Below are positions 9,920 through 31,470 of a DNA stretch of 41,171 nucleotides, piece after piece. Below the pieces are notes generated by a model, which was given only the letters and a program-made list of their open reading frames with translations, was not told the DNA's origin and did no database searches. This DNA is from Rhizobiaceae bacterium (GTDB lineage Bacteria; Pseudomonadota; Alphaproteobacteria; Rhizobiales; Rhizobiaceae). The translations under genes and the position numbers were made by a program. The first letter of the stretch is position 1, and every line of letters starts with the position of its first letter. Location: contig JAHBYV010000024.1 of the NCBI GenBank assembly GCA_019635795.1, forward strand, positions 1 through 41,171, in the 5' to 3' direction.

Positions 9920-9921
9920 AT

Positions 9922-11031: not shown

Positions 11032-11034
11032 ATC

Positions 11035-12128: not shown

Positions 12129-13052
12129 TCAGCGCAAAAGGTCGAACATCAGCTTGAAGAAGCGATCAGCATCGACCTCATACGCGATCCTGGCGTTGTC
12201 CTTCTCACCCCGCTCGCCCCAATAGTCAGCGACCGTAGCACCGAAAGCATAAGTTCCGCCCAAATCCACCCCGATATGGGCCGGTCGGGTGCGGATCAGC
12301 GTCGGATCAATAGCGACGGCCAGCGCAAGCGGGTCGTGCATCGCACCGCCCACACCCATGGAATTGCGGTGCAGTTTTTCATAGAAGAGCAGCCAGTCGT
12401 TCACCAGCTTGCCCAGCGGCGTGTCGATGGTGGCCAACTCGGCATACTGTTCCTTTTCCACCAACACTTGCATGGTGACGTCCAAACCGACCATCACGAT
12501 GTCAATGCCGCTATCCAGCACAATCTTCAGCGCCTCGGGGTCGCAGAATGCGTTGAACTCCGTAGGCGTTATGATCTCGCTCTTGCGGAAGAAGACGCCG
12601 CCCATCCAGATCAACTGCTTGATCTTGGGCAATATGTCACGATGCTTGAGAATAAGCAGGCCGATGTTGCAAAGCGGCCCGGTCGCAACAACAGTGAGCG
12701 GTTCGGGATGTTCCCGTAGTTTGCGCGCGAGGAAATCCACCGCATGTTCCTTGACAGGCTCAATCGTTGGCTGCGGTAGATAGGGCGAGCCTTCCAGACC
12801 ACTTGGCCCATCAGCAGTGCCCAAAACAAGCGGTCGCGCCAGCGGTCTGTAACAGCCCTGCGCCACCGGCACATTAGCAGCACCAATATACTCAAGGATT
12901 CGCAGCGCATTGCTGGTGGTTTTATCGAGTTCGGCGTTGCCACAAGTGGTCGTCACGCCCAGAAGCTCGATATCAGGCGAGCGATGCGCCATGACGAGGG
13001 CGATCGCATCATCATGACCGGGGTCGCAGTCGAACAGGATTGGTGTAGGCAT
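12129..13052 (-). CDS. nucleoside hydrolase, canonical type
   Basis: A 307-aa inosine/uridine-preferring nucleoside hydrolase homologue. It cleaves the N-glycosidic bond of ribonucleosides to base and ribose in the cytoplasm. The calcium and catalytic cluster FDCDPGHDDA is at residues 7-16 (consensus DxDPGxDDA), and the distal MHDPLA motif is intact. Normal length. It is the last gene of the minus-strand nucleoside importer operon, two bases after the second hydrolase, so it acts on what the importer brings in. Base specificity cannot be read from the sequence. Confidence 0.9.
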   Translation of the reverse strand: MPTPILFDCDPGHDDAIALVMAHRSPDIELLGVTTTCGNAELDKTTSNALRILEYIGAANVPVAQGCYRPLARPLVLGTADGPSGLEGSPYLPQPTIEPVKEHAVDFLARKLREHPEPLTVVATGPLCNIGLLILKHRDILPKIKQLIWMGGVFFRKSEIITPTEFNAFCDPEALKIVLDSGIDIVMVGLDVTMQVLVEKEQYAELATIDTPLGKLVNDWLLFYEKLHRNSMGVGGAMHDPLALAVAIDPTLIRTRPAHIGVDLGGTYAFGATVADYWGERGEKDNARIAYEVDADRFFKLMFDLLR

Positions 13053-13054
13053 GA

Positions 13055-14068
13055 TCAGTTTCCCCGTTCGTAGCGCGCCATTGTTTCCTTGAACATTCGA
13101 AGGAAGCGCTTGCCATCAATTGTTTGCGCGATGCGTGTTGTCTTCGACCCGCCACCCGGCAGAAGCTGCCGTCCGCGATGAGCGACGGTCTGCCCGCGCG
13201 CAACACCCTTTTCGATAACCACATCTGCAAACAGCGGCTCAGTGGTCGTAACGAGGTCTGGAGCGATGGCGAGCGCAACCGTGATCACGTCGTCCATCGG
13301 GAAGCCTACGAGATCGAAGAATTCGCGCCAAATATCGATGTAGATCGGAAAGGAGTCGGCGATCATATCGACCACCGCATTCGCCTTCGACGCGGTAACC
13401 ATGTCGAAAATATCGTCACGCGTCATCATGGAGTCAGCGCATCTGTTATCCTCGCACACATCAAGCGGCACGAGGATCTTGTTCACGTCCGCATTCAGGA
13501 CAATCCGCGCCGCCTCCGGGTCTGCCCAGATATTATATTCTGACAGCGGGGTAATGTTGCCCGGGGTAATGAAATTGCCGCCCAGCACCAGCATGTCCTT
13601 AAGCGCACCGGCAAGCCTTGGTTCTTGCAAGAATGCGAGCGCCGCGTTGGTGCATGGACCCGTCGTGACCAGTGTGATTTCTCCGGGGTTGTCGAGCACG
13701 AGCCGAATGATTGCATCGACAGCATGTTCCGCGTTCGCCGGACGCTTTGGTTGCGGCGCGGGCGGGTTGAACTTCTTCAGCCGGTCGCCGAAGCGTGCAA
13801 CGAGCCTTTTCTCAAAATGGACCGGCGCTTCCATATCCTCTTTCGAGTTTCCAACAATCGGACGCCATGCACCTGCGTAGACAGGAATGTCGTCGCGACC
13901 GGCCAGCGTAAGCGTGTTGAGCACAACGTTAGTCACCTGCTCGATTGGTCCAGCGGCACCCGTGACAGTGGTAACTGCTTCGAGTTTGAGATCAGGATGG
14001 GCAGCGGCAAATAACACCGCAAGAATGTCGTCGCCCGCTGAATCGACGTCGAGAATAATACGTTGCAT
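13055..14068 (-). CDS. nucleoside hydrolase family protein, divergent motifs
   Basis: A 337-aa member of the nucleoside hydrolase family, next to the canonical one. The N-terminal cluster reads LDVDSAGDDI: the aspartates are kept, but PG is replaced by SA. The distal HDP motif reads MDD, losing the histidine that acts on the leaving base in canonical enzymes. A conserved TTGPCTNAALAF segment and an ILGGN-like LVLGGNFITPGN segment confirm the fold. It probably hydrolyses a different N-ribosyl compound from its neighbour. It lies 5 bases downstream of the permease gene. Confidence 0.82.
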   Translation of the reverse strand: MQRIILDVDSAGDDILAVLFAAAHPDLKLEAVTTVTGAAGPIEQVTNVVLNTLTLAGRDDIPVYAGAWRPIVGNSKEDMEAPVHFEKRLVARFGDRLKKFNPPAPQPKRPANAEHAVDAIIRLVLDNPGEITLVTTGPCTNAALAFLQEPRLAGALKDMLVLGGNFITPGNITPLSEYNIWADPEAARIVLNADVNKILVPLDVCEDNRCADSMMTRDDIFDMVTASKANAVVDMIADSFPIYIDIWREFFDLVGFPMDDVITVALAIAPDLVTTTEPLFADVVIEKGVARGQTVAHRGRQLLPGGGSKTTRIAQTIDGKRFLRMFKETMARYERGN

Positions 14069-14073
14069 GATTG

Positions 14074-15060
14074 TTATCTTGAACCCTCTGTGGGACGGGA
14101 GTCAGGTGTTTCCGCGCGCAGGAAGCGCCGCATGGAGTCGGCAGTTTCGCGGATCAGTTTTGGCCGCGCGGCGTAGGACAGTGCGAACAGAGCCGTCAGA
14201 GCCACCAGATATGGCACCGCCAAAATGAGGTATGACGGATAGCCGAATGTCTGGAGACGCAGCGAAAACGCATCGGCAAGGCCAAACAACAAGCAGCCCG
14301 CAAGCACCCGCAACGGATCGCCATTTGAGAAGATCAGGATGGCAACTGCCATGAACCCGCGTCCCGATGACATGTTTTCCGTAAACATGGTGATGTAGCC
14401 GAGCGACAGATGCGCGCCAGCAAGACCGGCAAATAATCCGCACAGCAGCGAAGCAATGTAGCGTATTCGGGTTATGGAAATGCCCAGCGCTTCGGCAGCT
14501 TCCGGCTTTTCACCCACAACGCGAATGTAAAGGCCAAGCCGCGTGCGCTTATAGAAAAGTACAAACAACGGAACTGACAGAAACGCGATATAGACGAGCG
14601 GAGTGTAGCCCGAGACCAACGGAGCCCAGGAACCCAACAGCTCCCTTGCATAGGGAATCTGGATCTTGGGTAGCCCGACAATCCCCTGACCGACAATAGA
14701 ACCACGCGTGCCGAAGATCGCCTTCATCAGAGAAATGGTCATGCCACCTGCAAGGATGTTCAGCGCCAGGCCGACCACCACTTCATTTGCCCGAAAAGTC
14801 ACGACCAGCAGGGCAAAAACATAGGCGAACACCAGCGCTGCGGCCACGCCGCACAACACACCACCCCATGCAGATCCGGTCCAGATCGAACCGAGTACTG
14901 CGAAGAACGCTCCGGCCAACATCTGCCCTTCCAGCCCGATGTTGAAAATGCCGGCCTTGGTTGTGAAGCTGCCGCCCAAGGCCACAAGCAGAATCGGTGC
15001 CGTCGTTCGCAGCGTTGCGACGATAAGCGCGACATTGATGAGACTTGTCAGAACTTCCAT
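14074..15060 (-). CDS. ABC transporter permease, nucleoside (BMP) type, second subunit
   Basis: A 328-aa inner-membrane permease of the BPD_transp_2 family, NupQ/YufQ-like. Many hydrophobic segments are seen. A GGSFTTKAGIFNIGLEGQMLAGAFFAV stretch near the N-terminus, typical of nucleoside importers of this class, is clear. Its start overlaps the end of the partner permease by 13 bases. It works with the double ATPase and the BMP binding protein. Confidence 0.87.
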   Translation of the reverse strand: MEVLTSLINVALIVATLRTTAPILLVALGGSFTTKAGIFNIGLEGQMLAGAFFAVLGSIWTGSAWGGVLCGVAAALVFAYVFALLVVTFRANEVVVGLALNILAGGMTISLMKAIFGTRGSIVGQGIVGLPKIQIPYARELLGSWAPLVSGYTPLVYIAFLSVPLFVLFYKRTRLGLYIRVVGEKPEAAEALGISITRIRYIASLLCGLFAGLAGAHLSLGYITMFTENMSSGRGFMAVAILIFSNGDPLRVLAGCLLFGLADAFSLRLQTFGYPSYLILAVPYLVALTALFALSYAARPKLIRETADSMRRFLRAETPDSRPTEGSR

Positions 15061-16088
15061 CTGCGCTCCCCGCCTTGCGCATCTCCACGCCGCCGAACAA
15101 GAAACTGTGCCGAAACGCTAAGGATGATGAATGCCTGAATGACAGTGATAATCTCGCGCGAGGCCGAGGTATCCGTTTCCAGCAAGAGTGAACCAGACCG
15201 AAGCGCACCAAAGAAAAGCGCCGTCGCGATTGTCCCGATAGGTGAGCCGTTTGCCAGCAGGGCCGCGATCAATCCGTCAAAGCCGAAGCCCGGCGCGAAC
15301 CCCTCCATGAAACGGTGATGCACTCCCAGAGTCTCGACGCCACCCGCAAGGCCGCCGACGGCCCCTGAAGCGATAAGCACCCAGAAACCGCGCTTGCGGA
15401 TATTGACCCCGCCGTACTCCGCGAATTTGGGTGCCGATCCTGTCATCGAAATGGCATACCCGCCGGGCGTATTGCGGAAATACCACGCAGCGCCGACTGC
15501 AAGCGCCAGACCGATAAGCAAACCCCAGTTCAGCCGCGAAAAATCGAAAAGTTCCGGCAAATAGGCCGAGCTTGCTATTGGAGGCGTTTCTGACCAGCCA
15601 CCGGGCCGTTTGAACAGGAAAATCGTGAAATAGGATGTAAACAGAACCGCCACGTAGTTGGACAGAATTGTCGAGACAACTTCATTGGCGTTGAAGCGCA
15701 CGCGAAACCAAGCCGGGATTGCCACCCACGCAGCACCAGCGCATATCGCAGCAATAAGCCCGGCTAGCATATGAATGCCTGGCGGCATGGGCAGCGCAAA
15801 TCCCACCAGCGCCGCCGCGAAGCCACCCATAAAAAGTTGCCCCTCGACACCGACATTGAACATGCCGCCACGCAGCGCAATGCACGCCGCAACACCCGTT
15901 ATGAGAATTGGGGTTGTCTGCAATAGCGTGCCCGCAATTCTTGTAACGTCGCCAAAAGCTCCGCGCATCAATGTGGAGAAAACGCGGATCGGGCTTTCAT
16001 CGATCAGAAGAATGACGATCGAGCCCAGCGCAAGCGCAAACGCCACAGCTATGACCTGCCCAAGGATAGTGCGCATAAGCGGGCTCAT
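15048..16088 (-). CDS. ABC transporter permease, nucleoside (BMP) type, first subunit
   Basis: A 346-aa inner-membrane permease of the BPD_transp_2 family, NupP/YufP-like. The signature region ALRGGMFNVGVEGQLFMGGF lies about residues 70-90, and FNANEVVSTILSNYVA follows in the next third; both are typical of purine-nucleoside-type importers. An ATGA overlap couples it to the ATPase gene, and it overlaps the second permease by 13 bases. Confidence 0.87.
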   Translation of the reverse strand: MSPLMRTILGQVIAVAFALALGSIVILLIDESPIRVFSTLMRGAFGDVTRIAGTLLQTTPILITGVAACIALRGGMFNVGVEGQLFMGGFAAALVGFALPMPPGIHMLAGLIAAICAGAAWVAIPAWFRVRFNANEVVSTILSNYVAVLFTSYFTIFLFKRPGGWSETPPIASSAYLPELFDFSRLNWGLLIGLALAVGAAWYFRNTPGGYAISMTGSAPKFAEYGGVNIRKRGFWVLIASGAVGGLAGGVETLGVHHRFMEGFAPGFGFDGLIAALLANGSPIGTIATALFFGALRSGSLLLETDTSASREIITVIQAFIILSVSAQFLVRRRGDAQGGERRWKF

Positions 16089-17644
16089 GCTGCGTGCTCC
16101 GCCTGTTCGGGCGATACCCCGGCCATCATCAGGCCAACCTGATCCTCATCAGCATTTTCGCCATCGACTGTGCCCATGATCCGACCGTTAAACATCACCA
16201 GCAGTCGGTCTGCCAACTTGAGCAATTCATCGAGCTGGACGGAGATCAGAAGTATTGCCACGCCGTTGGCACGTTGCCGCATAATTTCGTCGTGGATCGC
16301 CTCTTGCGCTCCAATATCGACACCGCGCGTCGGCTGATCGATCAGGAGGAAGGAAGCTTCGTTCGTGAATTCCCGTGCGAGAACAACTTTCTGGATGTTG
16401 CCACCTGACAGACGGCGAACCGTATCGTTCGGCCCGCGCGCGCGTATATCGAACCGCTCAATCAGCCCTATCGATTCCCTTGCAGCGGCCTTCCAATCCA
16501 ACAGACCTCTACGCTTCCACGGCGCGCGATCCTGACGCCCCATCATGAGATTGGACGCAATTGAGGCATTTCCATCGACGCCGCGCGTCATGCGGTCACC
16601 GGGTACGTGAGCCAGCCCGGCGGCGCGCACCTCCGCAGGCGACAAGGTCAGAATATCACGGCCGTTCAGAACAGCCGTTCCGTGGCTGGGCGGGCGCAGG
16701 CCTGAGAGGACTTCCGCAAGCTCGGTCTGTCCATTGCCAGCCACACCGGCAATTCCGACGATTTCACCCGCGCGCACCTCAAACGAAACATCGCGCAATG
16801 CTGGGTGACGTCGATCATCGCGCGCCCAAAGACCTTCAACCTGAAGTACCGTCTTTCCATCTGTGCGCGGGCGGGTCGGGCGCTCGAAACTGACATCGCG
16901 GTCGACCATCAACCGCACCATTTCAGCCTTGTTCAACTCTGCGGTCGGCCGCGTTGCGACCGCCTTGCCGCGACGCAAAACCGTAACGGTATCGGAAACC
17001 TCAATCACCTCTTCAAGGTGGTGTGAGATGAAAATCACCGTCATCCCACCTTCCGCAAAGCTGCGCATGGTCGCAAACAGCTCGCGGCTTTCCTGCGGTG
17101 TCAAAACGGCGGTTGGCTCGTCGAGAATTACTGTGCGCGCGCCGCGAACAAGAACCTTCAATATTTCAATGCGTTGCTCAATCCCAACTGAAAGAAGCGC
17201 GACGCGTTCCGTGGCGTCAACCGCAAGGCCGAAACGTTTTGACAATTCGGTTGTTCGCTCTTCCTGTGCCTGATGATCAATCAAGCCGTTGCGCCGAATT
17301 TCCATGCCCAGGAAGACGTTCTCGGCAACAGTGAGTGAGGGGACGAGCTTGAAATGCTGGTGGACCATGCCCAACCCCAGCTTAATGGCAACCGAAGGAT
17401 CGTCCATAACAACAGGCGAACCGTTCAGCCTGATCTCGCCCTCATCGGGCTGGAGCAAGCCGAACAATATGTTCATGAGCGTCGTCTTGCCCGCTCCGTT
17501 TTCACCAACGATTGCGTGAATCTCGCCCCGGCGCACGCGCAGGTCGATCTTGTCGTTGGCGGTGAAAGTGCCAAACCGCTTGGTGATGCCTATAAGCTCA
17601 ACGGCATAGTCGGCAGCGGTGGAAGAGGCCGTATCCGGTTCCAC
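16085..17644 (-). CDS. ABC transporter double ATP-binding protein, nucleoside type
   Basis: A 519-aa ATPase with two nucleotide-binding domains, NupO/YufO-like. Domain 1 has Walker A GENGAGKTT (48-56), a signature-like LLSVGIEQR and Walker B VILDEPTAVL. Domain 2 has a degenerate Walker A (GVAGNGQTEL), a good signature LSGGNIQK and LLIDQPTRGVD. This asymmetry is normal for the RbsA-like class. The start is GTG at 17644, with AAGGA 8 bases upstream; no better ATG exists. It powers the two permeases that follow. Confidence 0.9.
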   Translation of the reverse strand: MEPDTASSTAADYAVELIGITKRFGTFTANDKIDLRVRRGEIHAIVGENGAGKTTLMNILFGLLQPDEGEIRLNGSPVVMDDPSVAIKLGLGMVHQHFKLVPSLTVAENVFLGMEIRRNGLIDHQAQEERTTELSKRFGLAVDATERVALLSVGIEQRIEILKVLVRGARTVILDEPTAVLTPQESRELFATMRSFAEGGMTVIFISHHLEEVIEVSDTVTVLRRGKAVATRPTAELNKAEMVRLMVDRDVSFERPTRPRTDGKTVLQVEGLWARDDRRHPALRDVSFEVRAGEIVGIAGVAGNGQTELAEVLSGLRPPSHGTAVLNGRDILTLSPAEVRAAGLAHVPGDRMTRGVDGNASIASNLMMGRQDRAPWKRRGLLDWKAAARESIGLIERFDIRARGPNDTVRRLSGGNIQKVVLAREFTNEASFLLIDQPTRGVDIGAQEAIHDEIMRQRANGVAILLISVQLDELLKLADRLLVMFNGRIMGTVDGENADEDQVGLMMAGVSPEQAEHAA

Positions 17645-17666
17645 AAGACTATCCTTGGATCAGGAA

Positions 17667-17691
17667 GCGCCGGCGAAGAATCCGCCGGCGC
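17667..17691 (-). ncRNA. intercistronic stem-loop after the binding protein gene
   Basis: GCGCCGGCG and CGCCGGCGC form a perfect 9-bp G/C stem with a 7-base loop, in the 63-base gap between the BMP binding protein stop and the GTG of the ATPase gene. There is no T-run. It probably stabilises the upstream message or attenuates readthrough, giving more binding protein than membrane components. Confidence 0.6.
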
Positions 17692-17707
17692 ATGATTGGG
17701 AAGTGCG

Positions 17708-18712
17708 TTATTTCGCCCTATCGATCTTGATCGAGCCGTCGATAACGCCCTTCTTCAGCTCATCAACCTTTGCGGTGACGTCGGCAGGAATTTCAGATGC
17801 GATGTCATCGCAAACCTTGAACTCAACACCACCGGAGGCAAGATCGAAGGTTCGGGTTCCGGGCGTGACCTTACGACCCTCAACCTCATCCTTGATAAGC
17901 GTGTAAACGGCAACATCGCCACGCTTGAGCATCGAACCAAGAACGTTACCCGGAGCGGTCCCGCACATATCTATATCAACACCAATCGAGTATTTATCGG
18001 CTGCGGCACTCGCCTGCATAACGCCTTCGCCTGTCGGCCCGGCAACATTGTAAACAATGTCCGTGCCCTGACCATAAAGGGCCATAGCAAGTTCACTGCC
18101 TTTGGCAGGATCGTCGAACGTGCCCGCGAACACAGAATTCACCTTCACGTCGGGCGCCGCAGCCTTCGCACCCTGCTCGTAACCGCCAAGGAAGTTACGG
18201 ATCACCGGAATGTCGCGGCCGCCGACAAAGCCAATTGCCTTGCCATCACCCATTTTCGGGAATGCCGAACCCTTGTCGGCAATCATCCCGGCCAGCGCAC
18301 CAGCGATATAAGACCCCTGCTCTTCTGCAAAGTTTGCATAAATCATGTTGGGGCTGTCGAGCACGCCATCGATGAACACAAAGCGTTGATCAGGATAGGC
18401 CGCACTTGCTTTGGTCAGCGCGTCGACGAGCTCCCAGCCCATAACAAAAATGAGATCGTACTGCTTGTCCTTCGCGAGGTTAGCGAACTGTTCCTCGTAG
18501 TCCAAAGCTCGGTTACCTGTATCGACCAGCTTGAGATCAATGCCGAACTCATCCTTCGCCTTGTTCAAGCCATTGACAATTGAAACTCCGAAACCCTGTG
18601 CGAAGTAGCCGGAAATGGCGGCAACTGACACTTTATCCTGCGCTGACGCGCTCGCAACCGTCGCGAGAAGTGCAACGCTTGCGAAAAGACCTTTTGTAAA
18701 GTTCCCGATCAT
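17708..18712 (-). CDS. BMP family ABC transporter substrate-binding protein (nucleoside type)
   Basis: A 334-aa basic-membrane-protein (PnrA/NupN-like) binding protein. A Sec signal peptide ends near ASASA at residue 24; no lipobox cysteine is present, so it is a soluble periplasmic protein, as expected in a Gram-negative. The family pattern is clear: SGYFAQGFGVSIVNGLNKA, then VFIDGVLDSPNMIYANFAEEQGSYIAGALAG split over residues 110-145, GFVGGRDIPVI, and VYNVAGPTGEGV. Known relatives bind purine or other nucleosides. The two nucleoside hydrolases in the operon agree with that. It has its own strong promoter. Confidence 0.9.
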   Translation of the reverse strand: MIGNFTKGLFASVALLATVASASAQDKVSVAAISGYFAQGFGVSIVNGLNKAKDEFGIDLKLVDTGNRALDYEEQFANLAKDKQYDLIFVMGWELVDALTKASAAYPDQRFVFIDGVLDSPNMIYANFAEEQGSYIAGALAGMIADKGSAFPKMGDGKAIGFVGGRDIPVIRNFLGGYEQGAKAAAPDVKVNSVFAGTFDDPAKGSELAMALYGQGTDIVYNVAGPTGEGVMQASAAADKYSIGVDIDMCGTAPGNVLGSMLKRGDVAVYTLIKDEVEGRKVTPGTRTFDLASGGVEFKVCDDIASEIPADVTAKVDELKKGVIDGSIKIDRAK

Positions 18713-18771
18713 AAAGGCACCCCTTGTTTGTTATTGGCATGTCAGTCGGCAACCGCACCGAACTGCTGACG

Positions 18772-18818
18772 TTTGTTTGTAGTCAAACAAATTATGTGCG
18801 GATTTGTAATGCTGTCAA
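18772..18818 (-). promoter_or_regulatory. promoter and operator of the nucleoside importer operon
   Basis: Reading the minus strand, TTGACA (18818-18813) and CATAAT (18796-18791) are spaced by 16 bases, a near-consensus sigma-70 promoter. A near-perfect operator, TTTGTTTG-N4-CAAACAAA, occupies 18772-18791, touching the -10 and covering the start point. Its core GTTTG-N4-CAAAC recurs at three other promoters in the window. Repression by a dimeric regulator, probably the MarR protein at 27396, is inferred. Confidence 0.75.
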
Positions 18819-18888
18819 TCATATCAACATCCCAAGCGAGCATCTTTCTTGTGATATACCCGCTTAGATTGCGTCGGATGTTCAGGTT

Positions 18889-19473
18889 TCAGATAAGCCC
18901 ATCCTCCCCCTTGACGTCCTGCTTGAGCAGACCGCCCACGCGCGGCAAAGGACGACCTGAATCCGTCACTCCCACAGCTACAACGATCTCATCGGCCCTT
19001 GGCGCATCCGGAATTCGCACCTCTATACCGTCGAAATGGCTGCGCACCTTGGCCGCGTCTTTATGACCAAGTGGGAGATCGAAGGGCGACCCCGGCGCGC
19101 AACGCTTTTTGGACGAGGGAATCAATGCCGCGCCCTTACCCAGCAATCGTCTGACCGGAGCACCGAGCCGCGGATGCATCAGCGCCGCCCCATGCTCAAG
19201 TTCACCATCCTCGCCAATAGCTGCGGCCTTTCCGAAGCTTTCGACTTTATCACCTGGAATCCCAAGCGCCTCAATGGCCCGAGCGGTCAACAACTCCCCC
19301 AATTCCTCACCGATTTCCATCAGAGGGGTCAAATCCTCAACATACTTCCCGGCAAATGGATTGGAGATAACGGCAGCAGATACCGCGCGGCGGGTCGCTG
19401 GCGACACGGCCTGTCCTGCCTCCGTATGCGTCTCCTCGACGAATGTCAGAATGCGACGGATCGAAGCTTTCAT
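18889..19473 (-). CDS. AA_synth (PF06684-like) family protein, copy B
   Basis: A 194-aa protein of the so-called amino acid synthesis family, whose function is not established. Motifs shared with the upstream paralogue: NPFAGKYVED near residue 40, GELEHGA near 90, PSSKK near 120, VRSHFDGIEV near 150 and GEDGL at the C-terminus. No signal peptide or membrane segment. It is coupled by ATGA to copy A, suggesting a hetero-oligomer or successive steps. Its context between a nucleoside importer and an amide-type importer suggests a role in nitrogen-compound breakdown. Confidence 0.75.
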   Translation of the reverse strand: MKASIRRILTFVEETHTEAGQAVSPATRRAVSAAVISNPFAGKYVEDLTPLMEIGEELGELLTARAIEALGIPGDKVESFGKAAAIGEDGELEHGAALMHPRLGAPVRRLLGKGAALIPSSKKRCAPGSPFDLPLGHKDAAKVRSHFDGIEVRIPDAPRADEIVVAVGVTDSGRPLPRVGGLLKQDVKGEDGLI

Positions 19474-20060
19474 CTCAATCCATCCTTTCCGGAAATCTGC
19501 GAAGCTTCGAGGCCACCGGAACGCGAATGGATACGCGGACCTGTTGTCATGGCGAGCACAAGCATGAGTTCTCCTGCGCGCGGACCATCTGCAACGCCAA
19601 CTTCGATGGCGTCAAAGTGGCTACGCACATACGACGCATTTGTATGTGTGATCGGAATGTCGATCCTCGTGCCCGGACCGCCAACTTTCTTGGTAGACGG
19701 CACGATGGCGCGGCTGCGTTCAGCGCCGAGCAAATCACGCATGGCATAGCCGCCCGGATTGTGCCAAAGCGCGCCGTGCTCAAGCTCGCCGGCTGTTCCA
19801 ACGACAGCGCCTTTTCCGTAACCCTCAATCTTGCTGGCATCTCCACCAAGCGCATCGAGCAGCTTACGCGCCATCTTCGCACCAAGTGGTTTCAGATCCT
19901 CCATGAAGGGCTGAATGTCTTCAACATACCGACCGGCAAACGGGTTTGTGATTATCGCGATAACCGCCCCCCGGCGAACAGGTATGTCCGCACGAGGGCC
20001 GCCCTCATGAAAAACCTCCTCAACCTGAACCTGCATCTTTCTGACATCGACCTCGGGCAT
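19470..20060 (-). CDS. AA_synth (PF06684-like) family protein, copy A
   Basis: A 196-aa paralogue of the downstream gene. Shared motifs are NPFAGRYVED, GELEHGAL, PSTKK and VRSHFDAIEV, the last followed by DGPRAGE. A good ribosome site (GGAGG) precedes ATG at 20060. The stop overlaps the start of copy B. The family has known structures but I know of no proven reaction. Divergent from the Tat-exported binding protein gene, sharing the 316-base intergenic region. Confidence 0.75.
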   Translation of the reverse strand: MPEVDVRKMQVQVEEVFHEGGPRADIPVRRGAVIAIITNPFAGRYVEDIQPFMEDLKPLGAKMARKLLDALGGDASKIEGYGKGAVVGTAGELEHGALWHNPGGYAMRDLLGAERSRAIVPSTKKVGGPGTRIDIPITHTNASYVRSHFDAIEVGVADGPRAGELMLVLAMTTGPRIHSRSGGLEASQISGKDGLR

Positions 20061-20075
20061 CTTCCGCCTCCATAA

Positions 20076-20104
20076 ATTTTACCAGTTCATATGATTGGTA
20101 ACAA
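20076..20104 (-). promoter_or_regulatory. dyad and possible promoter before the AA_synth pair
   Basis: TTACCA-N11-TGGTAA spans 20079-20101. On the minus strand TTGTTA (20104-20099) and TAAAAT (20081-20076) are 17 bases apart and resemble -35 and -10, so the dyad would fill the promoter. The start point would then fall within the ribosome site, which is a difficulty. The rest of 20105-20279 shows nothing convincing. The dyad is plain; the promoter is uncertain. Confidence 0.35.
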
Positions 20105-20279
20105 TCTGCACGTCGATTGCAAGTGCCTGTTGGGGTGAGGGATCGCGGTTCATAGGCGAAATTCGGCCCGCGCCGGACATTATATGCTCAAGTTTGCGGC
20201 ATGAGCGTTGCATTTTTTCATCAATCCAACACCTCTCTGCATATTGATAAGGCTTTTTGCGAGGACCATCAAAAATGTA

Positions 20280-20307
20280 TTGACTGTTTGTATTCACATG
20301 AAATGAT
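20280..20307 (+). promoter_or_regulatory. promoter with GTTTG operator variant for the amide-type importer
   Basis: TTGACT (20280-20285) and AATGAT (20302-20307), spaced 16 bases, are candidate -35 and -10 elements. GTTTGTATTCA at 20286-20296 fills the spacer. The same 11 bases occur inverted before the amidase gene (26684-26694) and match the operator core at 18772-18791. The start codon is 70 bases downstream. Confidence 0.6.
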
Positions 20308-20376
20308 CTTACACGCCTCGCTTGCACTGCGGGCCTCCACAGCACGTGGCAGAAACAGGGACCAGAGGGATATGCT

Positions 20377-21591
20377 ATGACCGATTTCTCAAAAGCACTA
20401 TTTGGTGGCCGCGCCACACGTCGGCGTTTTCTGGGCGGCCTTGGCGCTGCTGCATTAACGCCTATTGCGGCGACCCTCGGCGCGCCGAGTATTGCACGCG
20501 CGCAGGGCGCACCGTTCAAGCTTGGCGTTCTGCTGCCCTTCTCCGGCGGTCTGGAGCTATTCGCCGAGCAAGGTATGCAGGGCATTCAAATGGCGGTCGA
20601 TGAATACAATGCCGATGGCGGCGTGTTGGGTCGACAGATTGAAATCGTGCAGGCCGATGACAAGACCGACCCGCGCACTGCCGTTGAACGCGCGACCCAG
20701 CTTATTCGCCGCGATCAGGTCAACGCAATCGTGGGTCCGGTGACCAGCGCCAATCGCGACGCCATAAAATCCACGATCGAACGCGGCGAGACGCCTCTGC
20801 TTTACGCAACCGATTATGAAGGCGGCGTGTGCAGCCCATGGATCGCCTGCTATTCGGCGGTGCCAGCGCACTTTGTCGAACCATTGATTCCGTTCCTGCT
20901 CGAAGCCAAGGGCGCAAAGAACATCTATCTGTTTGGTGCGGATTACACGTGGCCCCAGAAGATGAACGCGGCAATCCGGGCCAAGATAGAGGCGAGTGGC
21001 GCAAAGGTAGCCGGAGAAGAATATACGCCCTTTGGAACAAAGGATTTTGCGCCGACCCTACGCAAGATCGAAGAATCGGGCGCTGACTTCATCATTCTCA
21101 CTCTGCCGGGCGCTGATGGCGTGACCTTCGTCAAGCAGATGGCGAGCTCCGGCCTGAAGGACAAGATCGGCATCTCCTTCCTTGGTTTCAACGAGAACTA
21201 CCTGCCAGGCTTCAGCGGCTCAGAGGCAGAAGGCATTATCGCTCCGCTCCCGTTCATGCAAACGCTGGACAGGCCGGAAGCGAAGGAGTTCGTCGCCAAG
21301 CAGCTCGCCAAATATGGTGAGAAGGCGCGCGTCACGTACTACGCAGACTCTCATTACAATCTGACGCGGTTCTATCTCAACGCCGTGAAGAAGGCCGGAA
21401 CGGACGACAAGAAAGCAATTATGGAAGCTCTGCCTGGCCAAACGCTGATGTCCGGCAATGGTGAAGTGACGCTGCGCGCAGAAGACCGCCATGTCGATCT
21501 CAACATCCTTATTGCTTCAGTGAAGGATGGCGGGCTGTCCATGGAAAAGTACATTGGGAAGGTAAACGCTCCCAACCAGTGCTCATTGTAG
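20377..21591 (+). CDS. ABC transporter substrate-binding protein, urea/amide/branched-chain type, Tat-exported
   Basis: A 404-aa Peripla_BP_5/6-type binding protein. The N-terminus has a twin-arginine signal (TRRRFLGG at residues 14-21, a hydrophobic stretch, cleavage after ARA near 43), so it is exported folded. Mature-region motifs include LGVLLPFSGGLELFAEQG, DEYNADGGVLGRQIEIV and VGPVTSAN, the pattern of UrtA, AmiC and LivJ relatives. The closest look is to short-chain amide or urea binders. It heads a complete importer operon. In context the ligand may be an amide, lactam or N-heterocycle; that is inference. Confidence 0.87.
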   Translation: MTDFSKALFGGRATRRRFLGGLGAAALTPIAATLGAPSIARAQGAPFKLGVLLPFSGGLELFAEQGMQGIQMAVDEYNADGGVLGRQIEIVQADDKTDPRTAVERATQLIRRDQVNAIVGPVTSANRDAIKSTIERGETPLLYATDYEGGVCSPWIACYSAVPAHFVEPLIPFLLEAKGAKNIYLFGADYTWPQKMNAAIRAKIEASGAKVAGEEYTPFGTKDFAPTLRKIEESGADFIILTLPGADGVTFVKQMASSGLKDKIGISFLGFNENYLPGFSGSEAEGIIAPLPFMQTLDRPEAKEFVAKQLAKYGEKARVTYYADSHYNLTRFYLNAVKKAGTDDKKAIMEALPGQTLMSGNGEVTLRAEDRHVDLNILIASVKDGGLSMEKYIGKVNAPNQCSL

Positions 21592-21607
21592 GTTCGACGG
21601 CTTATCC

Positions 21608-22351
21608 ATGTTCCTGACAGTCAGGGAACTCAAGAAGAGCTTCGGCGGCATTCATGCCTTGCAGGGCGTCAGCTTCAAGCTGGACGCCGCCGAGATCAAG
21701 TGCATTATCGGGCCTAATGGTTGCGGCAAGAGCACCCTGTTCAACATACTGACAGGGGTGCTCGCGCCCGACAGCGGCACAGCGCATCTTGATGGAACGC
21801 AGATAAGCGGCCTTCCGGCGCATCGCGTCAGCCGACTGGGGATCGGACGCAAGTTCCAGGTCCCCGGCGTGCTGTCGGATCTGACAGTCATGGAGCATAT
21901 GGAAATTGCTTTGGCTGCGCGTGATACAGATGGCCTGTTGTTGCGTACGCTGGGATGGCGCGGCGGACGCGCCGCAATCCTGAAGCAACTGGAGACTGCC
22001 GGGCTTACCGACTATGCTGGACAGATTGCATCGCAATTGCCGCATGGCATCAAGCAACGGCTTGAAATTCTTATGCTCGTGGCACGCGGCGCACGCCTTC
22101 TGCTGCTGGACGAACCCACTGCGGGCATGACGGCAGCGGAGACGCAAGCCACAATTGATCTCATCCGCCGGATTAACAAGGAAACCGGCATGGCGATTCT
22201 GGTGATCGAGCACGACATGGCGTTTGTTCGCAACCTGTCATGCCCTCTCATCGTCATGATGCGTGGTCAGGTGATACGCGAAGGCAGCTATGACGAAGTG
22301 AGGGCCGATCCTCAGGTCCGCGCCGCCTATCTTGGAGATCACCATGCTTGA
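21608..22351 (+). CDS. ABC transporter ATP-binding protein (LivG/UrtD-like)
   Basis: A 247-aa ATPase. Walker A GPNGCGKS is at residues 35-42. The signature region reads LPHGIKQRLEI, the usual variant in LivG/UrtD proteins, followed by LLLLDEPTAGM. The C-terminal segment VIEHDMAFVRNLSCPLIVM is typical of UrtD/LivG. It overlaps the next ATPase gene by 8 bases. It forms the ATPase heterodimer of this branched-chain-type importer. Confidence 0.87.
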   Translation: MFLTVRELKKSFGGIHALQGVSFKLDAAEIKCIIGPNGCGKSTLFNILTGVLAPDSGTAHLDGTQISGLPAHRVSRLGIGRKFQVPGVLSDLTVMEHMEIALAARDTDGLLLRTLGWRGGRAAILKQLETAGLTDYAGQIASQLPHGIKQRLEILMLVARGARLLLLDEPTAGMTAAETQATIDLIRRINKETGMAILVIEHDMAFVRNLSCPLIVMMRGQVIREGSYDEVRADPQVRAAYLGDHHA

Positions 22352-23045: not shown

Positions 23046-23048
23046 ACA

Positions 23049-24868: not shown

Positions 24869-24873
24869 ACCGT

Positions 24874-25695
24874 TCAGCGCTCGCCGGGCTTGCCTTTCAG
24901 GTGCCACGGGAAGGTATGCGTTGCAGGCGCGTTGGCCCACGATTGCAAGGTTTGGCCACCATCGATGAGCCAATCGACTCCGGTGATGTGCTGCGCTTCT
25001 TCTGAGGCAAGAAATGCTACAGCCGCCGCAACATCTTCCGGCTGGCCGATGCGACGCAATGGAATACGGTCAGCAAACCGCCTCACGCTTTCAATGTGGG
25101 CCTGTTTGTCAGCCGCGGGCACGCCCAGCGATGTTTCGATAACGCCGGGACAAATCGCATTCACCCGTATGCCATACCCTGCGAGATCGAGAGCTGCCGA
25201 GCGTGTCAGGCCGGTAACGGCGTGCTTGCTGGCGAGATAGCCGGGACTGGCGGACAACACATCCCAGCCGCCCATTGACGAGCCCATATTGACGATAGCG
25301 CCACCTTTCCCCTCGGCGATCATGGCGCGGGCAGCAGCACGCAGAACGACAAACTGGCTGCGCAAATTGGTGCGGATGACATGATCCCATTCCTGCGGGT
25401 CCAGTTCATGGATCGGCTTGACCGGTCCAGAGATCCCCGCATTGTTGAAAACGACATCAAGGCCACCGAAAGCCATCGCCGCCTCGACAGCGTATTGCGC
25501 GCCCCCATCCGACGCAACGTCGGAGCCAACGCCGATTGCATTGTCGAGCTTTGCTGCCATTTCACCCGCGCGCTCGGCATTCAGATCAGCAAGGACAAGC
25601 CGGGCACCTTCCTGAGAGAAACGTTGGGCGGCTGCCCAACCAATCGAACCGGCTCCACCTGTAACGAGGACCGTTTTCCCACTGAACCGCTGCAT
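24874..25695 (-). CDS. SDR family oxidoreductase
   Basis: A 273-aa classical short-chain dehydrogenase/reductase. The nucleotide motif TGGAGSIG is at residues 12-19, NNAG at 83-86, and the active site S139, Y152-x3-K156 (YLASK). D36 after the second strand (VLADLN) suggests NAD(H) preference. It would oxidise an alcohol or reduce a ketone. It is the second gene of a minus-strand pair with an epimerase-like gene, TAATG-coupled, whose promoter carries the shared operator. Sugar or ring-product oxidation fits the context. Confidence 0.87.
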   Translation of the reverse strand: MQRFSGKTVLVTGGAGSIGWAAAQRFSQEGARLVLADLNAERAGEMAAKLDNAIGVGSDVASDGGAQYAVEAAMAFGGLDVVFNNAGISGPVKPIHELDPQEWDHVIRTNLRSQFVVLRAAARAMIAEGKGGAIVNMGSSMGGWDVLSASPGYLASKHAVTGLTRSAALDLAGYGIRVNAICPGVIETSLGVPAADKQAHIESVRRFADRIPLRRIGQPEDVAAAVAFLASEEAQHITGVDWLIDGGQTLQSWANAPATHTFPWHLKGKPGER

Positions 25696-26549
25696 TACTT
25701 CTCTCCGCTTTCTGGATAATCGCGCCAGCTATGGCGTGGCTCAAAGCCAAGCTCACGCTTTGCCAGACTGGTGTCGATAAGGCTTGAATGGCCATCGATA
25801 TTCATCTTCATAGTAATTGGGCCATCGAAGGCTTCAGCTATCAGTTCGCGCGTGGGGGTTTCCGAATATGTATCGGCTGCTGAAAGGTAGCATCGCACGT
25901 GCCCATCACCTTCCCGGTTCAAAGCTCCGATGAACGCGGCGGCGGCATCGCGCGCGTCGAGATAGGCCCACAGATCGGCTCGTGCCTCTCGTGTCTTGCG
26001 GCGCAGGCCAATATCACGAGCGAAACTTTCCGGTGTCTGTATCCATGGCATACGCAGGCTGACCGCGCTGAAGAGCTTTTGCCGGACATAGGATTCCACC
26101 AGCTCTTCTCCCAGCCATTTCGTCGTGCCGTAAATATCCTGCGGCCCGACCGGATGGGATTCATCTATGGGCAGAAAACGGGGCACCGGGAAAACAGGAG
26201 CAAACGGATAGCCCAACACACTAAAGGAGGAGGCGTAGACAAATTTACCTGCACCGCACAGACGCGCGCCTTCAGTCGCGGCGTACATCGCGGCCATATT
26301 CACCCGGTAAACCTCTGCAGGCGCTGCCCCCGTCGGCCGGGGAATCGCTGCACAATGAACTATCGCATCAGCACCCGCAAACAGCTGGACGGCAATCCCC
26401 AGATCGGTAAGGTCAGCAGAAATGCGGGTCCAGTCCCCGGCATGTTGCGGCGCTCGATCTATGCCGGTGACACTGTACCCGGCGCGAACACACGCTTCCG
26501 CAACATGGTGGCCCAAAAGCCCGGCGGCTCCCGTCACGACAACCTTCAT
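25695..26549 (-). CDS. NAD-dependent epimerase/dehydratase family protein (extended SDR)
   Basis: A 284-aa extended SDR. I choose ATG 26549 with GGAGAAG upstream rather than the in-frame ATG at 26606; the protein then begins MKVVVTGAAGLLGHHVAE, with the nucleotide glycine motif at once. The active-site YGTTK is in the middle, and D31 (GIDRAP) suggests NAD. Relatives include sugar epimerases and uronate dehydrogenases. A uronate or sugar acid role would suit ribose-like products but is a guess. It starts the minus-strand pair with the SDR gene. Confidence 0.82.
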   Translation of the reverse strand: MKVVVTGAAGLLGHHVAEACVRAGYSVTGIDRAPQHAGDWTRISADLTDLGIAVQLFAGADAIVHCAAIPRPTGAAPAEVYRVNMAAMYAATEGARLCGAGKFVYASSFSVLGYPFAPVFPVPRFLPIDESHPVGPQDIYGTTKWLGEELVESYVRQKLFSAVSLRMPWIQTPESFARDIGLRRKTREARADLWAYLDARDAAAAFIGALNREGDGHVRCYLSAADTYSETPTRELIAEAFDGPITMKMNIDGHSSLIDTSLAKRELGFEPRHSWRDYPESGEK

Positions 26550-26580
26550 CTCGCTTCTCCGCTGATGCATCTGCAAACTT

Positions 26581-26613
26581 GTTTGATATCCAACGATATG
26601 GCGCATACCTCAA
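26581..26613 (-). promoter_or_regulatory. promoter and operator variant of the epimerase-SDR pair
   Basis: On the minus strand TTGAGG (26613-26608) and GATATC (26590-26585), spaced 17 bases, could be -35 and -10. The dyad GTTTG-ATAT-CCAAC (26581-26594) lies on the -10. It matches the GTTTG-N4-CAAAC core with one mismatch. The -10 match is weak, but the operator position is the same as at 18772. Confidence 0.5.
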
Positions 26614-26655
26614 GATCGAAATAGGGCAAATCAGCCATATAATGCACAAGTTCTC

Positions 26656-26694
26656 TTGACTTTGCACCGTCCGTCAATCCTTATGAATACAAAC
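26656..26694 (+). promoter_or_regulatory. promoter and operator variant of the amidase-MarR-enamidase operon
   Basis: TTGACT (26656-26661) is followed after 17 bases by CCTTAT (26679-26684). TGAATACAAAC at 26684-26694 is the exact inverse of GTTTGTATTCA at 20286-20296. With a start point near 26691, the upstream in-frame ATG at 26683 would not be in the message, which favours ATG 26719 for the first gene. If the MarR protein binds here it represses its own operon. Confidence 0.6.
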
Positions 26695-26718
26695 GATATG
26701 CACAAGGAAAATGGTCCC

Positions 26719-27357
26719 ATGGACGTCTTTTCATCACATCGTCAAGCGGGCGAAATCATCCTCGACCCATCGAAGACAGCCGTAATCGTAGTCGATATGA
26801 TAAATGAGTTCTGCAAGCCCGGCGGCCTGATGGTTCTGCCCGGCTACGAGAAGCTCGTACCGCAGCAATTACAGGTCATCGATGCAGCGCGCAAGAATGG
26901 CGTTCCGGTGATTTGGGTTCACGATGTGCATCGCTCCAATGTCCGGCAGGATCGCGAATGGCTGAAGCGCACTCCGCATTGCGTGGAGAAGACGTGGGGC
27001 GTCGAGATCATTGAGGATCTTGGCGCACGCGACGACGAAATACACGTCGACAAGCGGCGCTATTCTGCATTTTTCCAAACCGATCTGGACCTCACCCTGA
27101 AAGATTTGGGAGTGAACCAGATTGTTGTGTTTGGCGTCGTCACCAATATTTGCGTTCGTTCAACCGTGCATGACGCATTCTTCAACGGTTACGAGGTCGT
27201 GGTCCCGCAAGATTGCTGCGCGGCGACAGGGCCCCGTGAACAGGAAAGTTCGCTTTATGACATCGCGACGCATTTCGGGACTGTAAGCAACGCCGCCGCA
27301 GTGAGTGCCGCACTTGCTGGCGCGGGCGCGATCGAACCTATAGAGATCCCTGCCTGA
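26719..27357 (+). CDS. isochorismatase-family cysteine hydrolase (amidase)
   Basis: A 212-aa cysteine hydrolase. The start at ATG 26719 has AAGGAA 9 bases upstream; ATGs at 26683 and 26698 are alternatives. The catalytic triad of the family is visible: D26 (VVDMINEF), K112 (VDKRRYSAF) and C145 (GVVTNICVRST). Relatives include nicotinamidase, N-carbamoylsarcosine amidase, maleamate amidohydrolase and the ureidoacrylate hydrolase RutB. It probably hydrolyses an amide or ureido bond to release ammonia, downstream of ring opening. It begins an operon with a MarR regulator and an enamidase-like enzyme. Confidence 0.85.
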   Translation: MDVFSSHRQAGEIILDPSKTAVIVVDMINEFCKPGGLMVLPGYEKLVPQQLQVIDAARKNGVPVIWVHDVHRSNVRQDREWLKRTPHCVEKTWGVEIIEDLGARDDEIHVDKRRYSAFFQTDLDLTLKDLGVNQIVVFGVVTNICVRSTVHDAFFNGYEVVVPQDCCAATGPREQESSLYDIATHFGTVSNAAAVSAALAGAGAIEPIEIPA

Positions 27358-27395
27358 CAGAAGAGACTGCAATTCATGAAGTTTGGTGAGGGGAT

Positions 27396-27965
27396 ATGGC
27401 TGTAAAGAATGGCAAGGGCCGGAGCCGTAATATGGACGGCCTTTCGCGCGAGGAAGCGATCGTTCAGTTTGCCCATAGCGGCTACAATCTGGATGAGCAT
27501 CCAGCGCATCTTGTGCGGCGTGTTCATCAACGTGCTACGCAGCATTTTCAGCAGGTAATGGAGGGCGACAATATTTCGCCCACCCAGTTCGCTGCGCTGG
27601 CGACCATCCTCAAGAATGGCGCCATCTCACAGAATCATCTGGGACGCCTGACCTCGATGGACCCTTCAACAATATCTGTCGTGGTACGAAAGCTGCTGTC
27701 TGAAGGGCTTGTCATGCGGGTCAAGTCTGAATCCGATCAGCGCCTGACCATTCTGACCCTCTCCGAACGGGGACAAGCCTATACGCTTGAGCGGTTGAAG
27801 AAATCCGTAGAGGTCGGCAAGCGTCTGCTCGCTCCTCTGGCACCTGCTGAACAGGGTCTGTTGCTTTCGCTGCTCATACGTCTTTGCGACGATGTTCCTG
27901 CAGAAAATGCCAGTAGTTGGGATGAAGCGCCTGCACGTAACGGCGCTGTAGCTGCGACAGTCTAG
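27396..27965 (+). CDS. MarR family transcriptional regulator
   Basis: A 189-aa regulator with about 30 extra N-terminal residues. The winged helix is clear: SPTQFAALATILKNG near residue 65, a recognition region with MDPSTISVVVRKLLSEGLV near 90-108, and the wing KSESDQRLTILTLSERG. GAGGGGAT precedes ATG 27396. It is the only regulator gene in 12129-29170, so I infer it controls the four promoters with GTTTG-N4-CAAAC sites. MarR regulators of catabolic loci usually release DNA on binding the substrate or an early product. Confidence 0.88.
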   Translation: MAVKNGKGRSRNMDGLSREEAIVQFAHSGYNLDEHPAHLVRRVHQRATQHFQQVMEGDNISPTQFAALATILKNGAISQNHLGRLTSMDPSTISVVVRKLLSEGLVMRVKSESDQRLTILTLSERGQAYTLERLKKSVEVGKRLLAPLAPAEQGLLLSLLIRLCDDVPAENASSWDEAPARNGAVAATV

Positions 27966-27979
27966 GAAGGAGTAATACG

Positions 27980-29170
27980 ATGGCACATGAAGAAGCGCCT
28001 GCGTCCGCCAGTCAGCGGATCATTGTTCGCAATATCGGGCTTATGTTGAGCGGTGATCTCGAAAAGCCTGTTCTGGACGCCGACTCCATTCTGATTGAAG
28101 ATGGCATCATCCGCGCAGTCGGTCGTGCGGCCGATATGCCACCCCCCGAAAAGGACGATCGCGTTATTGACGCTGATGGCTGCGCCGTTTGTCCAGGATT
28201 GATTGACAATCACATGCACCCGGTCGCGGGCGACTGGACGCCGCGTCAGAATCAAATCGGATGGATGGAAAGCTGCGTCCATGGCGGTGTGACCACGCTT
28301 ATTTCTGCGGGCGAGGCGCATTATCCAAACCGGCCCCGCGATGTTGTGGGCGTGAAAGCGCTGGCGATTGCTGCCCAACGCAGCTTCTCCGGTTTTCGCC
28401 CGCTTGGCATGAAGATCATTGCAGGTGCGCCTGTGCTCGAACCCGGTCTTACCGAGAATGACTTCAAGGAACTTGCAGATGCTGGCGTAACATTGGTTGG
28501 TGAAGTCGGCCTTGGCCGAATCAAGGACGGCCCGACGGGTCGGATGATGATCGGATGGTCGCGTAAATATGGCATGACCTCCATGACCCATACAGGCGGG
28601 CCTTCCATCCCGGGTTCGGGGCGTATCGGCGCGGACGTCGTTCTCGAAGTGGATGCAGACGTCGTGGCTCACGTGAACGGCGGCCCAACGGCGCTGCCGG
28701 ACGACGAGCTCCGCCGCATTTGTGAAGAAGGCACTCGCGCGCTCGAAATCGTTCATAACGGCAATCTGCGGTCCGGTTTGATGGTGCTTGAACTAGCCAA
28801 TGAGCGGAACGAACTTCACCGTATGTTGCTAGGCACAGATGCACCTGCCGGTTCAGGCGTTCAACCGCTGGGCATTTTGCGAACGATTGCACATCTGGCG
28901 TCTCTCACTGATGTGGCACCGGAACTCATTTTCTGCTTTGCAACAGGTAACGTCGCACGTGTTCGCAACCTCGCAGACCGTGGGGTGATTGAACCCGGAC
29001 GCGCCGCCGATCTGGTGTTCCTTGATGCTGCTGAAGCCAGCGCCGGAGATGATGTTCTGGATTGCCTGCGCGAAGGAAATCTTCCGGGAATTGGAATGGT
29101 CATGATTGACGGAGTTGTGCGCACCGGGCGCAGCCGCAACACTCCCCCTGCACGTCGAGTGCCAAAATAA
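27980..29170 (+). CDS. enamidase-like metal-dependent amidohydrolase
   Basis: A 396-aa amidohydrolase-superfamily enzyme. The bimetal site is complete: H78-x-H80 (DNHMHP), E175 (GEVGLG), H204 (THTGG), H231 (HVNGG) and D287 (GTDAP). The order, spacing and surrounding segments (GGVTTLISAG, SIPGSG, RNTPPARR near the end) closely match, from memory, the enamidase of Eubacterium barkeri, which opens 1,4,5,6-tetrahydro-6-oxonicotinate to 2-formylglutarate and ammonia. By homology it should hydrolyse a cyclic enamide or lactam. No nicotinate hydroxylase or 6-hydroxynicotinate reductase gene is in the window, so the exact substrate is open. Good ribosome site (AAGGAG). Confidence 0.82.
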   Translation: MAHEEAPASASQRIIVRNIGLMLSGDLEKPVLDADSILIEDGIIRAVGRAADMPPPEKDDRVIDADGCAVCPGLIDNHMHPVAGDWTPRQNQIGWMESCVHGGVTTLISAGEAHYPNRPRDVVGVKALAIAAQRSFSGFRPLGMKIIAGAPVLEPGLTENDFKELADAGVTLVGEVGLGRIKDGPTGRMMIGWSRKYGMTSMTHTGGPSIPGSGRIGADVVLEVDADVVAHVNGGPTALPDDELRRICEEGTRALEIVHNGNLRSGLMVLELANERNELHRMLLGTDAPAGSGVQPLGILRTIAHLASLTDVAPELIFCFATGNVARVRNLADRGVIEPGRAADLVFLDAAEASAGDDVLDCLREGNLPGIGMVMIDGVVRTGRSRNTPPARRVPK

Positions 29171-31399: not shown

Positions 31400-31409
31400 G
31401 CGCAAACGG

Positions 31410-31429: not shown

Positions 31430-31470
31430 GCAACTGCAAAAAATCCAGTCATTTCCAATGGGAGTAAGAA

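Follow-up and report, generated by a model that had tools for sequence, protein, structure and literature searches.

In this study, we analysed a window of 41,171 nucleotides (contig JAHBYV010000024.1, assembly GCA_019635795.1, from a Rhizobiaceae genome of 3.26 Mb in 30 contigs, G000) and, within it, a gene cluster at 12129-29170 that encodes two nucleoside hydrolases, two importers, two AA_synth proteins, a short-chain dehydrogenase/reductase (SDR), an epimerase-type protein, an amidase, a MarR regulator and an enamidase homologue. On balance, we believe that this cluster is a MarR-controlled catabolic module, through which nicotinamide-type compounds that are amidated and N-glycosylated (here N-ribosylated) enter the enamidase branch of nicotinate breakdown. 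An earlier note on this DNA had proposed uptake and cleavage of an N-riboside joined to enamidase ring opening; judged from the sequence, N-glycoside cleavage and amide hydrolysis coupled with enamidase ring opening still appears to be the best reading. The cluster is a real variant of nicotinate-type catabolism. Neither a description of it nor any pathway with this combination, of which the earlier note also knew none, was found in the literature searched, a search mostly outside the reach of subscription papers.

Families were called by Pfam/NCBIfam profile search of the window proteins, and each family named earlier was confirmed where it had been placed, with the enamidase matching 2vun over its full length; the MarR regulator (27396-27965) inside the cluster is an addition to the earlier gene list. 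The gene order is two nucleoside hydrolases, the BMP-type importer and two AA_synth genes (all minus), the UrtA-like importer (plus), the SDR and epimerase-type genes (minus), and the amidase, MarR and enamidase genes (plus), as follows:
12129..13052, minus strand: nucleoside hydrolase NH1; PF01156, 304.8 bits; DxDxxxDD intact; nearest solved relative RihA 3g5i, 230 bits
13055..14068, minus strand: divergent nucleoside hydrolase NH2 (DVDSAGDD); PF01156, 245 bits
14074..15060, minus strand: BMP-type importer permease 2; PF02653; B6-permease model below cut-off
15048..16088, minus strand: BMP-type importer permease 1; PF02653
16085..17644, minus strand: BMP-type importer ATPase; PF00005 in two stretches; NF047930, 467.2 against a cut-off of 670
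17708..18712, minus strand: BMP (PnrA-like) substrate-binding protein; PF02608, 180 bits
18889..19473, minus strand: AAs1, AA_synth (PF06684) of the enamidase-linked clade; 239.6 bits; closest solved 2qtp (SPO0826)
19470..20060, minus strand: AAs2, AA_synth (PF06684) of the second clade; 233.1 bits; closest solved 3byq (BB2672)
20377..21591, plus strand: UrtA-like, Tat-type substrate-binding protein; PF13458 (Peripla_BP_6), 293.7 bits; starts with an RRRFLGG stretch
21608..22351, plus strand: importer ATPase a; PF00005
22332..23045, plus strand: importer ATPase b; PF00005
23049..23906, plus strand: importer permease, LivH type; PF02653
23762..24868, plus strand: importer permease, LivM type; PF02653 from residue 77; true start probably about 23900
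24874..25695, minus strand: SDR dehydrogenase (glucose 1-dehydrogenase subfamily); PF13561; NF005559, 221.1 against a cut-off of 215
25695..26606, minus strand: epimerase/dehydratase-type Rossmann protein; PF01370, 92.8 bits; true start may be internal to the open reading frame (ORF)
26719..27357, plus strand: isochorismatase-type amidase, RutB-like; PF00857, 165.8 bits; nearest 3hb7 and RutB
27396..27965, plus strand: MarR regulator; PF01047; presumed owner of the operators
27980..29170, plus strand: enamidase homologue; 373.5 bits to 2vun across residues 13-395

NH1 and NH2 both pass the family test (Pfam gathering score plus DxDxxxDD, which we take to be the nucleoside hydrolase motif), and both miss the RihA equivalog cut-off of 433, with 272.7 and 149.3, respectively. 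Both AA_synth proteins clear the PF06684 gathering score (27 bits). The RRRFLGG stretch of the UrtA-like protein is presumably a Tat-type motif. The amidase start is probably the ATG at 26719 rather than the TTG at 26656, and the protein misses the equivalog cut-offs of RutB (117.1 against 377.95) and PncA nicotinamidase (59.2 against 174). Three narrower identities were tried and rejected. A B6-type BMP importer missed all four subunit equivalog cut-offs (145.7 against 465, 131.6 against 400, 467.2 against 670 and 49.7 against 400), and a UrtA urea importer missed its cut-off of 492.75 at 230.6. A nicotinamidase was rejected for the amidase on the grounds of its nearest relatives (RutB and unnamed hydrolases), the missed PncA cut-off and a true nicotinamidase on contig C30 of the same genome.

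The gene set is supported as one conserved, co-regulated unit. An enamidase-alignment scan, of which the best 80 loci among 560 relatives were kept, gave the same core as in the window, as far as the contigs reach, in loci L081-L090 and L100 and in the relatives G052 and G011 (G011 is the genome of L090), and a part of the core in L095. Among 397 genomes of the order, an amidase-only search at E <= 1e-60 matched 19 (our own and 18 others). An enamidase gene lay within the 20-kb stretch of the amidase in all 18 others, or in 17 of 17 after removal of G317, the genome of L089, as a duplicate, so the clustering is more than a chance arrangement. Altogether, 31 unique amidase-bearing loci were collected, 14 by way of the enamidase searches and 17 by the amidase alone, and some of them were extended by side stretches. 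Their genes were counted by scripted identity thresholds, with L085, L088 and L095 truncated by contig ends. The enamidase was present in 31, AAs1, AAs2 and MarR in 30 each, the epimerase in 29, the SDR in 28, the BMP binding protein in 23, NH1 and NH2 in 21 each, a carbohydrate-type binding protein with a Gfo/Idh protein in 16, and glutarate genes in 5. NH1 is 76-90% identical in 20 other loci. Scattered and independent genes, which the earlier note had named as evidence against itself, were not what we found for the core, but the UrtA-like Tat-type importer was present in only 4 of the 31 loci. This importer is an exchangeable add-on outside the conserved core, although it is present in the window cluster and probably co-regulated there.

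Orthologues of NH2 (E <= 1e-40) and of the BMP binding protein (E <= 1e-60) each occurred in 3 of 101 genomes including our own, all three of them cluster-bearing. This distribution bears on the idea that the nucleoside hydrolases and the BMP importer serve ordinary pyrimidine nucleosides, the cluster being a mixed nitrogen-scavenging regulon that shares regulation only. NH1 is nearest to RihA and the nearest named relative of the amidase is RutB of uracil breakdown, as this idea would have it. We nevertheless consider it quite unlikely, because no equivalog cut-off was reached, the NH2 and BMP orthologues were always accompanied by the enamidase, and the enamidase and AA_synth proteins have their kin in nicotinate clusters.

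For a 22-base operator matrix, 51 sites were taken from 24 intergenic stretches in 12 other loci (consensus TTTGTATGACCATCAACAATTT). The five top scores of this matrix in the window, 26.1, 17.7, 15.7, 13.7 and 12.6, fell at five cluster promoters, and the next score was 6.9. The five sites are:
18770..18791, minus strand: operator before the BMP binding protein; 26.1 bits, the top match of the window
20086..20107, plus strand: operator on the AAs2 side; 15.7 bits
20281..20302, minus strand: operator on the UrtA-like importer side; 13.7 bits
26578..26599, plus strand: operator on the epimerase side, within the ORF as called; 17.7 bits
26678..26699, plus strand: operator on the amidase side; 12.6 bits

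Since 20 Markov shuffles of the window gave top scores from 5.6 to 17.9, four of these five sites are not significant by score alone, and it is their position that counts. The promoter stretches cover 1.6% of the window; they were drawn once the matches were known, and one runs 67 bases into an ORF. Outside the training set, sites of at least 20 bits were found in 16 of 17 loci (L225 had none above 11; L223, which duplicates a training locus, was left out). Best scores in 24 comparison loci lay between -1.0 and 21.1; they exceeded 12 in 11 loci and 20 in 2. Many of these loci are nicotinate-type, and nicotinate-type loci carry a related palindrome, often directly upstream of enamidase or reductase genes; the matrix is therefore not cluster-specific. 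The co-regulation suspected in the earlier note is supported by these shared operators, which the MarR protein presumably binds. Because one of them lies at the promoter of the UrtA-like importer, this importer is probably in the regulon here, though it is not conserved.

In this study, we believed that the heterocycle is very probably nicotinate-type, since nicotinate clusters hold close kin of the enamidase and of both AA_synth proteins and five variants of the cluster carry glutarate genes. Against the nicotinate-type enamidases compared, the window enamidase shows 57-65% identity with many invariant stretches, and it retains H78, H80, E175, H204, H231 and D287, which we take to be the binuclear metal site of the amidohydrolase fold. 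A quick enamidase tree of 70 rows, with many weakly supported forks, needs four label changes to place the amidase-linked loci, three of them forced by well supported branches. These changes suggest joins of the amidase module to at least two nicotinate-type enamidase lineages. An identity of 57-65% leaves room for a shift in specificity, and the substrate might then be another cyclic enamide that is not derived from nicotinate. We regard such a shift as very unlikely in view of the many invariant stretches, the joining to at least two nicotinate-type lineages suggested by the quick tree, and the glutarate genes of the five variants.

A second enamidase subfamily (44-46% identical; L070, L071 and L072 in G064, G080 and G097) has Lys in place of Glu175. 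In one member Gln takes the place of His78, and an HpaB-type flavin monooxygenase adjoins two of the three.

The glycoside part of the substrate is indicated by gene exchange. In 16 loci we found a carbohydrate-type binding protein with permeases, an AP_endonuc_2 TIM barrel and a Gfo/Idh/MocA dehydrogenase, and four of these loci (L208, L210, L212 and L213) have no nucleoside hydrolase in the stretch taken. The pairing of AP_endonuc_2 and Gfo/Idh/MocA proteins is known from oxidative glycoside cleavage. Two different glycoside-splitting systems thus occur on one amidase-enamidase-AA_synth core, which points to N-glycoside substrates. The fate of the carbon is indicated by five variants (L208, L209, L210, L212 and L213) with glutarate genes between AAs1 and MarR. 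Their CoA-transferase is near succinate-glutarate CoA-transferase (597 bits, missing the cut-off of 750), and their dehydrogenase scores 770 bits with 4w9u, named only as an acyl-CoA dehydrogenase, and up to 618 bits with glutaryl-CoA dehydrogenases. From these genes, the carbon probably ends as glutarate. For Azorhizobium, Kitts et al. (1992) reportedly described a decarboxylation after ring opening, then oxidation to glutarate and a CoA transfer.

We infer the following substrates and order of steps. The BMP importer would take up the riboside, and the SDR and epimerase-type dehydrogenases may bring the ring to the 6-oxo-1,4,5,6-tetrahydro (lactam) level. NH1 and NH2 would then break the N-riboside bond, the RutB-like amidase would take off the carboxamide, and the enamidase would open the lactam, yielding 2-formylglutarate with release of ammonia. 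The AA_synth pair would act on 2-formylglutarate, most likely by decarboxylation toward glutarate, which would proceed through glutaryl-CoA. We consider the overall reading moderately secure, with the chemistry before the lactam less settled.

The window families include neither a nicotinate hydroxylase nor a 6-hydroxynicotinate reductase. A 497-aa protein (cluster 3) without Pfam/NCBIfam match was found in 55 of 120 clustered loci, beside enamidase or hydantoinase A/B, UPF0280, molybdenum hydroxylase subunits, a Liv-type importer and AA_synth. In PMC3511419, strain SG-6C and members of Azorhizobium, Bradyrhizobium and Rhodopseudomonas are described as having nicotinate clusters, with a 42% homologue. 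Based on this source and on the cluster context, rather than on comparison with the Eubacterium barkeri sequence, we called the protein 6-hydroxynicotinate-reductase-type (HNR-type).

The statement of the earlier note that hydroxylase and reductase are absent stood for the window but not for the genome. Contig C30 encodes a nicotinamidase that scores 252 bits with 2wt9, as well as a molybdenum hydroxylase (58% to the reference) and an HNR-type protein (66-69%), together with UPF0280, a MarR protein and a ferredoxin-reductase-like protein, so the absence holds locally only. The block lies at about 62000-70200 (L165, L166), flanked by siroheme/sulfite reductase genes and an S1-domain (rpsA-like) gene, and two top matrix matches around it (16.9 and 14.8) sit at its own gene starts. 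Unlike the blocks of G001 and G002 of the same genus, it is without hydantoinase A/B and AA_synth, and the only AA_synth genes found in the whole genome are the window pair. For this reason, the window enamidase and AA_synth proteins may also complete a split nicotinate route of C30.

In another explanation, nicotinamide riboside is split into nicotinamide and ribose and the classic route (nicotinamidase, nicotinate hydroxylase and 6-hydroxynicotinate reductase), encoded elsewhere, does the rest, the window adding only uptake, riboside cleavage and the last hydrolases. The C30 block, which the window enzymes would complete, fits it, and so does the presence of HNR (E <= 1e-10) in 15 of 29 unique core genomes (L087 and L100 not included). 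However, HNR was not found in the other 14, among them two genomes in a single contig, G294 (nucleoside hydrolases present) and G460 (none seen). These 14 genomes weaken the idea that the cluster is simply an accessory to the classic route. Nine of these 14 genomes have nucleoside hydrolases, and G313, G389, G437, G449 and G460 show none in the stretch. In a HyuB search of 12 core genomes, 8 had a close HyuB (at least 85%) together with HNR (G052, G101, G103 in two fragments, and G104-G108) and would need no second ring opener; this HyuB lay inside the seen HNR stretch only in G052 and G101, and G000, G011, G102 and G110 had only a distant one. The HNR block of G156 already contains a second enamidase. 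Taken together, the 14 genomes without detected HNR, the 8 of 12 with close HyuB and the second enamidase of G156 led us to believe that the core most likely has its own substrate, and we judge its service to a classic route elsewhere unlikely.

Several points weigh against a module with its own N-glycosylated, amidated substrate. L209, L215 and L225 have amidase and enamidase with no glycoside-splitting genes in the stretches taken. Operator scores reach 23.0 in nicotinate-type loci. Genes for activating glutarate or oxidising glutarate semialdehyde are absent from the window; the genome has its own glutaryl-CoA-dehydrogenase-type gene on C4 (77%), with a best CoA-transferase match of 33% within the surrounding 15 kb. 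The SDR accompanies HNR in 12 of the 15 core genomes with HNR; the SDR is thus no strict substitute for HNR, and a link to the classic route is possible there. The SDR and epimerase could also act on the released sugar instead of the ring. Finally, the carboxamide is a guess as substrate of the amidase, whose nearest kin are RutB and unnamed hydrolases, not nicotinamidases.

The SDR was kept in all 14 core genomes in which HNR was not found, and it was absent only from L215 and L225, whose genomes have HNR, and from the contig-cut L095. We therefore speculated about a glycoside-first, reductase-free breakdown of nicotinamide, in which the N-sugar would let ordinary NAD(P)-dependent dehydrogenases reduce the ring, or the substrate would already be a reduced, hydrated nicotinamide riboside (e.g., the nucleoside derived from NAD(P)HX). 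The SDR and epimerase-type proteins would oxidise the 6-hydroxy form to the lactam, the sugar, amide and ring would be split afterwards, and these steps would replace the molybdenum hydroxylase and 6-hydroxynicotinate reductase, with AA_synth as 2-formylglutarate decarboxylase. The 12 genomes with both proteins argue against a strict exchange of SDR for HNR, and we offer this route tentatively, as one that is itself unlikely to be correct.

The AA_synth proteins are candidates for the decarboxylation step after ring opening, for which, to our knowledge, no enzyme has been assigned in nicotinate breakdown. Nicotinate blocks combine AA_synth with a molybdenum hydroxylase, an HNR-type protein, a nicotinamidase and one ring opener. 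Among 56 nicotinate-type loci, 12 (two of them of the window's kind) had enamidase, 14 had hydantoinase A/B and none had both, and AA_synth was present in 8 of the 12 and 12 of the 14, respectively. The two ring openers can occur in one genome at separate places, as in G052, G064 and G080. Of 33 relatives with HNR (G026 was left out), 31 have an enamidase of at least 44% or a HyuB of at least 70%, and G091 has neither. Published sources describe the AA_synth structures 2qtp and 3byq as hexamers with conserved histidines and propose only a broad role in amino-acid metabolism (PMC2954203), and they call TgnF of trigonelline breakdown a homologue of a DUF1185 protein (PMC7913881). The occurrence of AA_synth with either ring opener and this TgnF link are what make it our decarboxylation candidate.

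In an AA_synth tree of 117 rows, whose bootstrap is unsettled and whose loci were in many cases picked through the enamidase and are thus biased, the copies of window-like clusters group beside nicotinate-type copies in both clades. The AAs1 fork (46 rows, support 89/60) comes entirely from enamidase-bearing genomes, and all 12 hydantoinase-type rows fall outside it. A better supported fork enclosing it adds two distant rows, one of them from G066, which is without a close enamidase.

Compared with known systems, the cluster shares with the nicotinate clusters of Azorhizobium and Bradyrhizobiaceae SG-6C, in the loci examined, a homologous enamidase, an ABC importer, AA_synth and related operator-like sites. 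It is without their hydroxylase and reductase, and has instead a BMP importer, nucleoside hydrolases, a RutB-like amidase, an SDR and an epimerase. In trigonelline degradation, the breakdown of an N-substituted nicotinate, the ring-opening enzymes differ from those of the window. With the nicotinate fermentation of E. barkeri the window has in common the full-length enamidase (2vun) with its metal-site positions, to which it adds glycoside and amide hydrolases and AA_synth proteins. With the Rut pyrimidine pathway it shares an isochorismatase-fold amidase whose nearest named relative is RutB, whereas the window has no RutA-type gene and the RutB score is far under the cut-off. The Azorhizobium/SG-6C route runs through glutarate according to PMC3511419, and an AA_synth-type protein, TgnF, is common to the window and trigonelline degradation by description, not by sequence, in PMC7913881.

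If our reading is true, the cluster would give soil and plant-associated bacteria a further way to break down nicotinamide glycosides that come from NAD or from plants, and it would explain how this ring can be opened in the absence of the known reductase and perhaps also of the hydroxylase. It would also give a concrete, testable reaction to the AA_synth family, which has been solved structurally but has no assigned function. From the comparison, nicotinate clusters also seem to have two alternative ring openers, enamidase and an ATP-dependent hydantoinase-type enzyme.

Flanking catabolic operons at 2897-12065 and 29636-38164 encode acyl-CoA ligases, enoyl-CoA hydratases, an acyl-CoA dehydrogenase, importers and TetR regulators. 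They were considered as part of the unit and rejected, since they are not retained as blocks beside the cluster in the compared loci. In many nicotinate blocks (L029 5097-8854 and relatives), hydantoinase A/B apparently replaces enamidase as the ring opener by non-orthologous exchange. The 497-aa HNR-type protein is highly conserved (L144 11380-12873 and orthologues), and a UPF0280/ApbE-like protein (L114 17270-18187 and relatives) is its near-constant neighbour. In G330 (L215, L226 3243-8789), the hydroxylase, HNR-type protein and UPF0280 directly adjoin the amidase, enamidase, AA_synth pair and UrtA-like importer, in a stretch with no SDR or nucleoside hydrolases.

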